Assembly (NCBI GenBank): GCA_025210235.1
Contig: JAOASG010000042.1
Span: 62,001-126,000, forward strand
From: Vallitalea sp.
GTDB lineage: Bacteria > Bacillota > Clostridia > Lachnospirales > Vallitaleaceae
Direction: 5' to 3'
DNA length: 64,000 nt
In this document: piece after piece, positions 1 through 60,886 of the stretch
Layout: the number at the start of each line of letters is the position of its first letter
How positions within the stretch are numbered: position 1 is the first letter of the stretch
The notes under the pieces: model-generated
What the model was told of the DNA's origin: nothing
The model's input: only the letters and a program-made list of their open reading frames with translations
Database searches by the model: none
Position numbers and translations under genes: made by a program

Positions 1-101
1 GCAAAAACTAATAATTTTAATTCGTAGTCGCTTTTTTTAGCGCAAATTCAACATAAAGTATGAAAGAATCAACTGAATGTAGTCTCGCAATTACTTAGGT
101 T
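1..101 (-). repeat. Diverged copy of the dispersed hairpin element (edge of window)
   Basis: The left part begins GCAAAAACTA and the right part reads AAAGAATCAACTGAATGTAG followed by CGCAATTACTTA. Both ends match the element seen complete at 9875-9993, in inverted orientation, while the middle is diverged. The copy is cut by the window start, so its outer end and any target duplication cannot be seen. Confidence 0.6.
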
Positions 102-2036: not shown

Positions 2037-2182
2037 TATTTGCTAAATGTTAGTATGAACTTTAATACATATGTAAATATTAGGCTAATGAATAATATTA
2101 CTTTAATTATTTTAGTATATTATTAGTTTAATATCTAATAATAATATTATAAAAATTTTCTTTTAAAATATTTTTATACTTA

Positions 2183-2225
2183 TAGTAATTGCAAAACTAC
2201 ATTCAGTTGATGTTGCAACTACTTA
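2183..2225 (+). repeat. Deleted remnant of the hairpin element
   Basis: TAGTAATTGCAAAACTA plus CATTCAGTTGAT match the 5' arm of the dispersed element. The sequence then jumps to a degenerate 3' end (GTTGCAACTACTTA). The remnant lies just upstream of sspH, inside the 322-bp gap between the precursor gene and sspH. Confidence 0.75.
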
Positions 2226-2260
2226 ATATTTTTATACTATATGAAAGGACAAATTAATAT

Positions 2261-9706: not shown

Positions 9707-9841
9707 TTAATTATGTTCTTTGTTATCACCAGCTTTATATTCTTTTTTTATATACTGGTCATTAAAATTAGCATCATATTTACCATTATTTTTAATTGTC
9801 TTTTTAATCTTTTCGCTATTTTCTTGGGTTGATTTTCTCAT
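9707..9841 (-). CDS. Small Lys-rich hypothetical protein (44 aa)
   Basis: An ATG at 9841 is preceded on the minus strand by AGGAG at a 9-nt spacing, and 44 codons follow before TAA. The product begins MRKSTQENSEKIKKTIKNNG and is very hydrophilic, rich in Lys, Asn and Glu, with no hydrophobic segment. I do not recognise the family. The size and composition are compatible with a minor spore protein or a small basic regulator, but nothing proves it. Support comes only from the good Shine-Dalgarno and the terminator just beyond the stop. Confidence 0.5.
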   Translation of the reverse strand: MRKSTQENSEKIKKTIKNNGKYDANFNDQYIKKEYKAGDNKEHN

Positions 9842-9874
9842 CTATAATATCTCCTCTCATTCTTTTTTATATAT

Positions 9875-9993
9875 TAAGTAATTGCAAAACTACATTCAGT
9901 TGATTCTTTAATACAATATGTTGGGTTCCCGTTTCTAATAAGGACTACATATTGTATGTGAAGAATTATATTTCCTAGTTTTGCAATTGCCTA
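9875..9993 (+). mobile_element. MITE-like hairpin element, full copy with 12-bp target repeat
   Basis: This 119-bp element begins TAAGTAATTGCAAAACTA and ends AGTTTTGCAATTGCCTA, imperfect terminal inverted repeats. An inner pair (ATTCTT...ATACAATATGT and ACATATTGTAT...GAAGAAT) lets the whole element fold into one long hairpin with an apical loop containing GGGTTCCC. It is flanked by perfect 12-bp direct repeats TTTTTTATATAT (9863-9874 and 9994-10005), as left by transposition. It has no coding capacity. Confidence 0.85.
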
Positions 9994-10318
9994 TTTTTTA
10001 TATATAATTATAGTATTTTACTATTATTATTTTTTTATCCTAATTATTAAAAGACACTTAAAAACTTTATTATTTAATTAAAATTGTCAATTAAATGAAA
10101 CAGTATATTAATTTATTAATATACTATTTTTTATTAAATAATAAAAAGGAAATATATGTAAATATTTAATGTAGTAAGTAAATTATGTTTAGTATAGAAT
10201 TTATAGTTTAAATAGTATATACTAGTTATATGGTTAATTGTCTGTATATTGCGAGAACTACGCATGTAAAACTATATTATTTGACAATTACCAACAAAAA
10301 ATCAGGGGAGGTTTACTT

Positions 10319-14187: not shown

Positions 14188-14306
14188 TAAGTAATTGCAA
14201 AACTACATTCAGTTGATTCTTTAATACAATATGTTGGGTTCCCGATTATAATAAGAACTACATATTGTTTGTAAAGAATTAAAATTCCTAGTTTTGCAAT
14301 TACCTA
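14188..14306 (+). mobile_element. MITE-like hairpin element inserted in an older inverted repeat
   Basis: This 119-bp copy starts TAAGTAATTGCAAAACTA, ends AGTTTTGCAATTACCTA and is closely similar to the copy at 9875. Perfect 11-bp direct repeats ATATATCTAGA flank it (14177-14187 and 14307-14317). Outside them AATCTCCC (14162-14169) and GGGAGATT (14319-14326) are complementary. The element therefore appears to have landed inside a pre-existing hairpin, probably the terminator of the marR gene. The rest of the gap to 14495 holds nothing else I recognise. Confidence 0.85.
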
Positions 14307-17841: not shown

Positions 17842-18873
17842 ATGATGATAAACGATAAAGTTAACTATATTACGTCCTATAAGAAAAAATTATTTATAGT
17901 AATTCTTATATTAATAGTTGTTAGTATTTTTTCTTTATTAATTGGACGTTATAATATTGAAGTAAAAGAAATATTTGATATATTTTATTATAAGATATTT
18001 AATATTAATATACCTAAAAGTATAGAGACATCTTCTTATGTAATATGGAACATTAGAATTCCTCGTATTATTTTGGCAGGGATTGTAGGAGCTTGTATTT
18101 CTGTAGCAGGAACTTGTATGCAAGGTTTACTGCAAAATCCTTTAGTTAGTCCTGATGTTTTAGGTGTTTCTTCTGGAGCAGGATTTGGAGCAGCTCTAGG
18201 TATTTTATTAACTTCTAATAACTTATTATGTATAAATTTTTTGTCTTTTCTATTTGGTTTAGTAAGTATTATTTTAGTGTTTTTACTTTCTAGAGTAAGA
18301 AAAGATCATTCCATTTTATCAATAATTTTAAGTGGTATTATTGTGTCATCTGTTTTTATGTCATTTATTTCACTAACAAAATATATGGCTGATGCAGAGG
18401 AAAAGCTACCAGCAATAACTTTTTGGTTGATGGGTAGTTTTTCTAGTGCATCTTATAAACAAATTAAAATTATGTTAATTCCAGCAATATTAGGATTGGT
18501 TGGTTTAACGCTACTAAGATGGAAAATAAATGTTTTATCTTTAGGTGATGATGAAGCCTATACTCAAGGCATTAATCCCAAAAGATTAAGGTGGGTAATT
18601 ATAATACTATGTACAATTATGGTTTCAGGAACCGTTACTGTTGCAGGAATAATTGGATGGATTGGATTAGTGATTCCACATATATGTAGAAAATTAATAG
18701 GGTCTAATCATGGATATTTAATTCCTTTATCAGGATTTACAGGTGCTATCTTTCTTATTGTTATAGATTGTTTAGCTAGAAATTTAAGTTCTGCAGAAAT
18801 ACCAATAGGAATACTAACTGCTTTGATAGGAGCTCCAATTTTTGCTTTTATATCTTATAAAAAAGTTTGGTGA
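17842..18873 (+). CDS. ABC importer permease, FecCD/BtuC family
   Basis: This 343-residue membrane protein has about nine to ten hydrophobic helices. Family signatures include RIPRIILAGIVGACISVAGTCMQGLLQNPLVSPDVLGVSSGAGFGA, given here only as a location (about residues 73-118), and the ATPase-coupling segment GWIGLVIPHICRKLIGSNHG near residue 273. It would form the membrane channel of a metal-chelate or corrinoid importer with the flanking genes. Its stop codon falls on a remnant of the dispersed repeat at 18874, so its extreme C-terminus (KKVW) may have been altered by that insertion. Confidence 0.92.
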   Translation: MMINDKVNYITSYKKKLFIVILILIVVSIFSLLIGRYNIEVKEIFDIFYYKIFNINIPKSIETSSYVIWNIRIPRIILAGIVGACISVAGTCMQGLLQNPLVSPDVLGVSSGAGFGAALGILLTSNNLLCINFLSFLFGLVSIILVFLLSRVRKDHSILSIILSGIIVSSVFMSFISLTKYMADAEEKLPAITFWLMGSFSSASYKQIKIMLIPAILGLVGLTLLRWKINVLSLGDDEAYTQGINPKRLRWVIIILCTIMVSGTVTVAGIIGWIGLVIPHICRKLIGSNHGYLIPLSGFTGAIFLIVIDCLARNLSSAEIPIGILTALIGAPIFAFISYKKVW

Positions 18874-18915
18874 TTGCATTAAAGAATCAACTGAATGTAA
18901 TTTTGTAATTACTAA
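18874..18915 (-). repeat. Remnant of the hairpin element at the permease stop codon
   Basis: TTAAAGAATCAACTGAATGTA followed by TTTTGTAATTACTAA matches one arm of the element in inverted orientation. The base string GGTGATTGCA around the TGA stop resembles a mutated terminal repeat (GGTAATTGCA), so the stop itself may derive from the element. It separates the permease from the ATPase gene in an otherwise compact operon. Confidence 0.7.
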
Positions 18916-23706: not shown

Positions 23707-23739
23707 TAAGTAATTGTAATCTTAGTTTTCAATTACCTA
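23707..23739 (+). repeat. Minimal remnant of the hairpin element (both terminal repeats only)
   Basis: TAAGTAATTGTAATCTTAG joined to TTTTCAATTACCTA leaves only the two termini of the dispersed element, with the interior lost. Confidence 0.65.
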
Positions 23740-23767
23740 AACATATTTATTACTAGAAAGGTGCTGA

Positions 23768-32795: not shown

Positions 32796-32887
32796 AGTAA
32801 ACCTCCTAAGCCAATTTTACAATATTTAAATATGCATACTTATTAATTATATCAAAAATAGAACTTAATAACAAATAAAAAACTCTT

Positions 32888-32919
32888 AAAGAATCAACTG
32901 AATGTATTACAATTACTTA
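32888..32919 (-). repeat. Partial remnant of the hairpin element
   Basis: AAAGAATCAACTGAATGTA followed by TTACAATTACTTA matches one arm in inverted orientation. It lies 80 bp from a full copy. Confidence 0.7.
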
Positions 32920-33001
32920 TTAAGACAGATTATAACACTTGTTCCTAGCAATATATTCATATATAATAATAAAAGAAGAAATTATACTAGAAACTAAACA
33001 T

Positions 33002-33112
33002 TAGCTAATTGCAAAACTAGGAATTTTTAATTCTTTACATACAATATGTAGTTCTTATTAAAAGCGTGAACCCAACATATTAATCAACTGAATGTAGTTT
33101 TGCAATTACACA
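33002..33112 (-). mobile_element. MITE-like hairpin element, inverted full copy before ttcA
   Basis: This copy lies opposite in orientation to those at 9875 and 14188. It begins TAGCTAATTGCAAAACTAGG and ends AATGTAGTTTTGCAATTACA, with the inner pair ATACAATATGTAG retained on one side and shortened on the other (CCAACATATTAATC). No clear target repeat remains. It ends only about 20 bp before the TtcA-like gene start and overlaps a non-genuine TTG start. Confidence 0.8.
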
Positions 33113-36114: not shown

Positions 36115-36182
36115 AAGCTTCTATGCATTAAAACAGCCTATACATATATAAAGATAAGTAGCTTAAGTTTTATAAGAGCCTA

Positions 36183-36378
36183 GTAGGTGTATAGATATTA
36201 AAAAGTAGTGACTTTAAATCATCTTTAGAAAATCTTAGTGAATGGAAGAATAGCTTCCGTTAAGAAAATTAAATGTTTGACTGCAAGGAGTTTTTAATTT
36301 TTAGGAAGATATTCTGGAGTGAACTTAGATTTTCTTAGATGATTTAACAGAACGTATTTTTAATATCTATACACCTAC
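36183..36378. repeat. 196-bp structured element with perfect 22-bp inverted ends
   Basis: The ends (36183-36204, starting GTAGGTGTATAGATATT, and 36357-36378) are complementary over 22 bp. A second long helix inside joins AAATCATCT...AGAAAATCT (36215-36238 region) to AGATTTTCT...AGATGATTT (36325-36346 region) with one small loop and one mismatch. The core has hairpins GGAAG/CTTCC and AAAATTAAA/TTTAATTTT. It lies between convergent lexA and rsfS. It could be a structured RNA gene on either strand or a MITE. I see no reading frame and no second copy in this window. Confidence 0.6.
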
Positions 36379-36404
36379 GACCGTATTGCATTATATATAT
36401 ACTA

Positions 36405-40286: not shown

Positions 40287-40402
40287 TAAGTAATTTAAAA
40301 ACTATGTTCAGTTGATATTTAATACAATATATAGGATTCACTTGTGATAAAAACTACATATTGTCTATAAAGAAATAAAATTCTTAGCTTCGTAATTATC
40401 TT
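40287..40402 (+). mobile_element. MITE-like hairpin element, diverged full copy between obg and yhbY
   Basis: It begins TAAGTAATTTAAAAACTATG and ends TTAGCTTCGTAATTATCTT, with the inner pair AATACAATATATAGG and CTACATATTGTC retained. TTTATTTA occurs on both sides (40279-40286 and 40402-40409), possibly a decayed target repeat. It ends against the obg stop codon and sits inside a conserved operon. Confidence 0.75.
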
Positions 40403-41683
<1,281 letters not shown>

Positions 41684-41935
41684 TTATATCATTTCCTTCC
41701 ATCTTTAGGAATAAATATTTTTTCGCTGTATATCTATGTGTATTATAGTATATAATTAGATATTTTTAAAGAAAAATTTTCTATATTAGACTAAAAATAC
41801 TAGTTTTTTTAGGAATCCAACGAGAACTAAATTTTATTCTCTAAATAAAATATAAATTGGCAATAATAAACTATAATCCTAATTATAGTATTTATTAATT
41901 TAATTATCTTATACTCTTTTATAATCAATTTATAA

Positions 41936-42051
41936 TAGTAATCGCAAAACTACATTAAGTTGATTCTTTAATACAATGCTAGGTTCCCGTTTCTAATAAG
42001 AATTACATATTGTATGTAAAGAATTATAATTACTAGTTTTGCAATTACCTA
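41936..42051 (+). mobile_element. MITE-like hairpin element between rpmA and obg
   Basis: This 116-bp copy begins TAGTAATCGCAAAACTACATT and ends CTAGTTTTGCAATTACCTA. The flanks ATCAATTTATAA (41924-41935) and GTCAATTTATTA (42052-42063) agree at 10 of 12 positions, a decayed target duplication of the same length as at 9875. It lies within the L21-L27-Obg gene run. Confidence 0.82.
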
Positions 42052-51008: not shown

Positions 51009-51133
51009 ATTCCTCTATAATAATACGACATACATATTATATTTATTTAATCAAATTTGATTTTTAAGTAATTCGATTCTATTCTAGGAAACATTCTACA
51101 ATCATTAGCTAAGATATAAGATTGACGAGCCTA

Positions 51134-51243
51134 GCGTAGAGGGTATAGGGTAATATGGAGCAGCGAGCCACGGACGGCGAGCTCAGCTGTTTAAACACGG
51201 ACGTTTAATCTGCTGACGGAATATTACCCTATACCCTCTACGC
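51134..51243. repeat. GC-rich 110-bp hairpin element with perfect 23-bp arms
   Basis: The arms 51134-51156 (starting GCGTAGAGGGTATAGGG) and 51221-51243 are exact reverse complements over 23 bp. The 64-nt centre is far richer in G+C than the genome and contains the 8-mer CACGGACG twice (51169-51176 and 51196-51203). Small stems AGCAG/CTGCT and TTAAAC/GTTTAA are also present. It lies between convergent tyrS and pepD, after the tyrS terminator. No reading frame and no target repeat were seen. The composition suggests acquisition or selection for RNA structure. Confidence 0.7.
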
Positions 51244-51264
51244 GGAAACTTTTAAACAAAATAT

Positions 51265-54421: not shown

Positions 54422-54450
54422 TTAGGTAATTGTAAAACTAATAATTACTT
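54422..54450 (+). repeat. Minimal remnant of the hairpin element
   Basis: TTAGGTAATTGTAAAACTAA followed by TAATTACTT resembles the two termini joined. It fills the gap between the ACT gene and the WalJ-like gene. Confidence 0.55.
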
Positions 54451-60848: not shown

Positions 60849-60886
60849 TTAGGTAATTACAAAACTATATAAAAATTTGTAATAAA
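60849..60886 (+). repeat. Remnant of the hairpin element after coaE
   Basis: TTAGGTAATTACAAAACTATA is one terminus; ATTTGTAATAAA is a weak match to the other. It lies between coaE and the binding-protein gene. Confidence 0.55.

Follow-up and report, generated by a model that had tools for sequence, protein, structure and literature searches.

A 119-bp MITE-like hairpin element of a Vallitalea genome lies a fixed distance upstream of Shine-Dalgarno sequences

MITEs in general are short, AT-rich and non-coding, end in inverted repeats, fold as hairpins, are flanked by duplications and occur in many intergenic copies, and the 119-bp element of Vallitalea sp. described here is like them in all these respects. 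MITEAba12 of Acinetobacter is 113 bp long, makes a 9-bp target duplication, matches a resident insertion sequence and shows no identifiable target-sequence trend (PMC6382973). In contrast, the 119-bp element has duplications of 10-13 bp and a fixed target upstream of Shine-Dalgarno (SD) sequences, and its parent insertion sequence was not found. The pneumococcal RUP, BOX and SPRITE repeats are likewise dispersed, structured and intergenic, some of them being MITE-like, but they are over-represented between convergent genes (PMC3049150), whereas the 119-bp family sits just upstream of gene starts. Site-targeted transposons, Tn7 among them, resemble this family in that targeting spares host genes, although Tn7 uses one specific site and the 119-bp family a generic feature common to hundreds of genes. 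A review from 2024 on MITEs of prokaryotes (PMC10969869) does not mention ribosomal sites, and we found no precedent in the open-access literature for MITEs or insertion sequences targeting SD sequences or ribosome-binding sites (RBS). Elements of MITE type are already known, and what appears to be new is the RBS-proximal target specificity, which is unusual.

The consensus element, built from 56 copies, is 119 bp long (TAAGTAATTGCAAAACTACATTCAGTTGATTCTTTAATACAATATGTTGGGTTCCCGCTTCTAATAAGAACTACATATTGTATGTAAAGAATTATAATTCCTAGTTTTGCAATTACCTA), in keeping with the 110-120 bp given in a preliminary description of this DNA. Its terminal inverted repeats are about 18 bp long (TAAGTAATTGCAAAACTA / TAGTTTTGCAATTACCTA), with consensus positions 4-18 pairing with 102-116, and a second, inner inverted repeat encloses a variable loop. 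Fold calculation gave a long, very stable hairpin (-41 kcal/mol, z -8). Median divergence of the copies from the consensus was 7%, and comparison of copies showed conservation to be highest in the terminal and inner stems and the loop to be variable. The element has no coding capacity, 119 bp being too short for a transposase. No tRNA origin was found for it, and Rfam gave no match at gathering scores in the window or at E <=1 in three 20-kb stretches.

The window, that is, the whole 64-kb stretch of DNA analysed, lies within contig C31 of a 3.99 Mb draft genome of 71 contigs, with a G+C content of 28% (860 kb sampled). With <=3 mismatches allowed, the end motif matched the window 24 times; shuffles gave an expectation of 8.3, and none of them got to 24. 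Of the copies in the window, five are full length (profile matches, E 1e-34 to 6e-15), and the rest are remnants:

9875..9993, plus strand: full-length 119-bp element, target duplication TTTTTTATATAT at 9863-9874 and 9994-10005
14188..14306, plus strand: full-length element, 11-12 bp target duplication ATATATCTAGA(T)
33000..33112, minus strand: copy that has lost a short internal segment, directly upstream of GAAAGG-TTTATG
40287..40402, plus strand: old, diverged full-length copy, its left end facing GAAAGGAAGACATAATG on the minus strand
41935..42051, plus strand: full-length copy with a decayed target duplication, among the few without an SD-like neighbour
2182..2226 (profile 2184-2214), plus strand: two-ended remnant with the core deleted, flanked by ATATTTTTATACT repeats, then GAAAGGA and ATG
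5..96, minus strand: partial, decayed copy, profile E 4e-11
18873..18913, minus strand: single-end remnant (profile match), upstream of AAAGGAGG and ATG
23708..23740, plus strand: two-ended remnant with the core deleted, by sequence, upstream of GAAAGGTG; no profile match at E <=5
32884..32918, minus strand: weak single-end remnant, profile E 0.03, marginal
54422..54440, plus strand: single terminal repeat (pattern match), followed outward by AAAAGGAG and then ATG on the minus strand
60849..60867, plus strand: single terminal repeat (pattern match), followed outward by CAGGAGG and then ATG on the minus strand

The list of copies in the preliminary description therefore stood for the five full-length elements and for the partial ones at 5, 2184, 18873 and, weakly, 32884; its entries at 23707, 54422 and 60849 proved to be only short or single-ended remnants below profile detection at E <=5. 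The flanking repeats that it reported were all recovered, perfect over 12 bp at 9875 and over 11-12 bp at 14188, and decayed at 41935. Core-deleted remnants with nearly joined ends are frequent in the genome (C34 40845, C22 38625 and C56 48029, besides 2182-2226 and 23708-23740 of the window), and are what palindrome deletion would be expected to leave.

Genome-wide, a 15-bp terminus gave 459 matches at <=2 mismatches against 37 for its reversed control, which establishes the dispersed hairpin family as real and implies roughly 200 or more copies. With a 17-bp terminus as the query, this genome gave 215 matches and 145 further genomes of the order 0-1 apiece, so that the element ends are essentially unique to the source genome among the 146. 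In 1.61 Mb (40% of the genome) read with the profile, 113 copies were detected, 61 of them full length. The earlier figure of about one copy per 5 kb holds only when remnants are counted, as profile copies occur once per ~14 kb and full-length copies once per ~26 kb of the 1.61 Mb. Among the sister Vallitalea genomes, one (G004) carries a few copies and another (G002) about a dozen relatives that have diverged, sharing the core but having other ends; the core was undetectable in three other Vallitalea genomes and in 16 genomes from the rest of the family. A scan for the core pattern in GTDB and viral contigs retrieved one true relative, Vallitalea sp. McD1.14. Ten further genome matches came from unrelated phyla and were presumed fortuitous, and one viral match was rejected on reading since the hairpin partner was absent.

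Within the 1.61 Mb, 27 copies were flanked by a perfect repeat of >=9 bp. The duplication measured 10-13 bp in 23 of these 27, most commonly 12 bp (nine copies) or 11 bp (eight copies), and was AT-rich. For the empty-site comparison we used the region spoIIP-lepA-hemW-hrcA-grpE-dnaK-dnaJ-prmA-rsmE, with gene names assigned by eye from translations, in five sister species. At lepA the filled site reads TATAATAACCAACAGAAAA-element-ACCAACAGAAAATGGACTAAGGAGG, as against AACCAACAGAAAATGG.CTAAGGAGG with a single copy of the target in 5/5 sister species, which thus lack both the element and the second duplicate. The hrcA-grpE and prmA-rsmE intergenic regions of the five sister genomes also lack the element. 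The element is real, mobile and recently active. Its length below ~600 bp, non-coding nature, terminal inverted repeats, target duplications with empty sites, and ~200 or more dispersed copies are those of a MITE, and the original MITE interpretation is supported as largely right.

A fixed distance upstream of an SD sequence at nearly every copy is a new fact, beyond what had been described earlier. An SD-like 5-mer was present 10-24 nt outside one end in 54/60 full copies of the 1.61 Mb, compared to 13% of random intergenic points (p 9e-41), with both ORFs and SD motifs called by our own permissive procedure. The distance peaked at 17-20 nt from the element end, and the remaining 6/60 copies had no motif at the expected place. 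This pattern came to light in the first 860 kb, and the contigs added later served as a held-out test, in which the motif was found at 26/28 copies. Orphan ends of decayed copies showed it in 38/63 cases against 7% in the control, and in the window 8/10 inspected copies or remnants lay upstream of SD-like motifs. The left end of the copy at 9875, for example, faces GAGAGGAGAT-N7-ATG on the minus strand, whereas the copy at 14188 has GGGAG in both flanks and no gene start was seen there. We also observed that the 9875 element sits in the leader of a 44-codon ORF (MRKSTQENSEKIKKTIKNNGKYDANFNDQYIKKEYKAGDNKEHN; window 9708-9841, minus strand) with a good RBS, which is unlisted because it falls below the 80-aa ORF call.

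Of the 37 cases in which a gene start faces an element, 19 (51%) have the start codon 30-39 nt away and none has it at 40-75 nt; redrawing positions within the same intergenic gaps placed only 7% at 30-39 nt. The layout is thus the element, a 10-13 nt AT-rich duplicate, ~5 nt, (G)AAAGGA, a spacer and the start codon. Copies with the left end towards the SD sequence number 33 and those with the right end towards it 18 (p 0.05), so any orientation bias is at most weak.

With a probability of about 0.77, we read the family as a non-autonomous MITE-like element, mobilised in trans and targeted to a fixed point upstream of the RBS. A putative transposase would cut target DNA with a 10-13 bp stagger. 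The duplicated segment lies ~4-6 bp upstream of a purine motif, its best form being (G)AAAGGA, which is usually the SD sequence of a gene. Insertions then fall between the promoter or upstream cistron and the RBS. The RBS and coding sequence are left intact, which would permit a high copy number with little damage. We infer that the motif is read at the level of DNA. Motifs containing AAAGG account for 52% of targets but 26% of native SDs, and those of AGGAGG type for 14% and 32%, respectively; such over-use of the GAAAGG type favours reading of a DNA motif and argues against mere survival at harmless places.

Motif strength alone predicted 33/56 gene-start sites, and 49/56 were observed. The shortfall points either to a motif longer than the one modelled or to some other form of recognition of translation-initiation regions. 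Occupancy differs in the same sense, as 35/126 intergenic GAAAGG sequences at gene starts are occupied but only 1/50 of those without a gene. These counts give rise to a tentative and rather unlikely version of the targeting, in which the machinery would recognise real translation-initiation regions and not the bare motif, for instance via an adaptor protein, the mRNA leader or an R-loop. Targeting of promoter bubbles, prompted by the position of the lepA copy directly downstream of a TATAAT box, was rejected, since the prmA-rsmE and hrcA-grpE insertions are inside an operon.

The pattern might alternatively reflect AT-biased insertion only, with copies that break promoters, RBSs or genes being purged and the survivors clustering between promoter and SD sequence. 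The AT-rich duplications agree with this, and avoidance of ORFs by 31/32 full copies is what selection would give. However, many copies would then be expected downstream of genes and 40-100 nt from starts, contrary to the start-codon distances given above. Random insertion plus selection does not predict a fixed spacing such as the 17-20 nt peak, and leaves the preference for GAAAGG over AGGAGG unexplained. The place right downstream of the TATAAT box at lepA is also not obviously inert. We therefore consider purging alone improbable.

It is more doubtful still that the element is a functional RNA hairpin of 5' leaders, an mRNA stabiliser or regulator, kept near RBSs by positive selection. Its very stable fold (z -8), the conserved core with compensatory changes between families, and the location of copies in leaders would all suit such a role, but both orientations occur (33 and 18), core-deleted remnants occupy the same kind of sites, the compared sites are empty in sister species and the adjoining genes are functionally unrelated. 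Leader-anchored Cas1 integration uses an anchor on one side and leaves long duplications, features that the one-sided anchor and 10-13 bp duplication of our element recall, but movement by a Cas1-type (casposase-like) integrase is highly improbable, as Vallitalea genomes have at most one cas1 each, G002 has none in spite of its related elements, and our search for a stand-alone Cas1 integrase yielded a single ordinary cas1 in the source genome and none in G002.

Of the earlier proposal of non-autonomous transposons mobilised by a transposase, the MITE reading stands; a transposase is suggested by the inverted repeats at the ends and the duplications of 10-13 bp, and no matching gene was found. 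An autonomous relative would be expected to carry the end pair TAAGTAATTGC...GCAATTACYTA. No transposase or autonomous element with matching ends was present in the 1.61 Mb (40% of the 71-contig draft) or at the PF01609 hits of the genus. Pairs of ends with shared flanks, 250-8000 bp apart, occurred in the 1.61 Mb only as low-complexity coincidences, none of them around an ORF. On C26, two ends separated by 954 bp were interpreted as independent remnants since their outer flanks do not match. The 20 contig edges inspected contained an IS66-like orfA, recognised by eye, but no matching transposase.

IS4 family elements (IS4 and IS231 groups) make target duplications of 10-13 bp, alike in length to those of the 119-bp element. 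From duplication length alone, our guess for the mobilising enzyme is an IS4-like one of DDE type, possibly lost or missing from the draft. No relation in sequence to the IS4 family was found. DDE_Tnp_1 (PF01609) is represented in the source genome by two fragments, IS4-like and IS982-like, on the small contig C14, both without the element ends, the IS4-like one lying at a contig edge. None of the PF01609 loci of five sister genomes has the element ends, and intact IS4-type elements in the sister genome G001 have other ends (CAATGTCATTAAGTTAAG). The latter belong to a multicopy 1656-bp DDE_Tnp_1 (PF01609) element, IS4-like by eye, at L253, L260 and L262; one of its copies is inserted in the ~125-bp repeat described below, with an apparent 10-bp duplication.

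Homing to a point just upstream of the SD sequence, if true, would provide a generic safe harbour at almost every bacterial gene, in which ~200 copies could persist without gene disruption. Such a haven, seemingly hit with precision, would protect the host from damage by jumping. This prompts the question of how a purine motif to one side of the target is read by a transposase, and suggests a possible tool for putting DNA into 5' leaders. A strong hairpin placed in hundreds of leaders may also change expression genome-wide within one species.

Two other structured repeats share the genome, and the inner hairpin of the element occurs inside both, in a ~125-bp hairpin repeat at C34 13463, 111999 and 174986 and in a ~210-bp repeat at C34 145313 and 248120. 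In each, the position of the element within the repeat is constant, and long duplications were not seen; these copies therefore look like single old insertions spread with the host repeat. The ~125-bp repeat (CGCGTAGAGGGTATAGGGTAATAT...ATATTACCCTATACCCTCTACGC) is found at 51116-51249 (minus strand) of the window, at C34 53809-53929, 141725-141847 and 146777-146891, at C26 45152-45276 and at C9 138777-138918. It is widespread in the genus, with 51, 46, 14, 84 and 13 BLAST matches, some to other parts, in five Vallitalea genomes and one in G002. Its outer stems vary between copies by compensated changes (10/42 pairs) and it has no Rfam match; a mobile structured RNA is possible. The ~210-bp repeat (AGTAGGTTGATAGGTATTAAAAAG...TTTTTAATACCTATCAACCTA type, inner GTTTGACTGCAAGGAG), also without an Rfam match, occurs at 36177-36395 of the window and at C34 47833-48057, 124000-124340, 179533-179766 and 195038-195270, and some of its copies carry an extra hairpin of ~100 nt.
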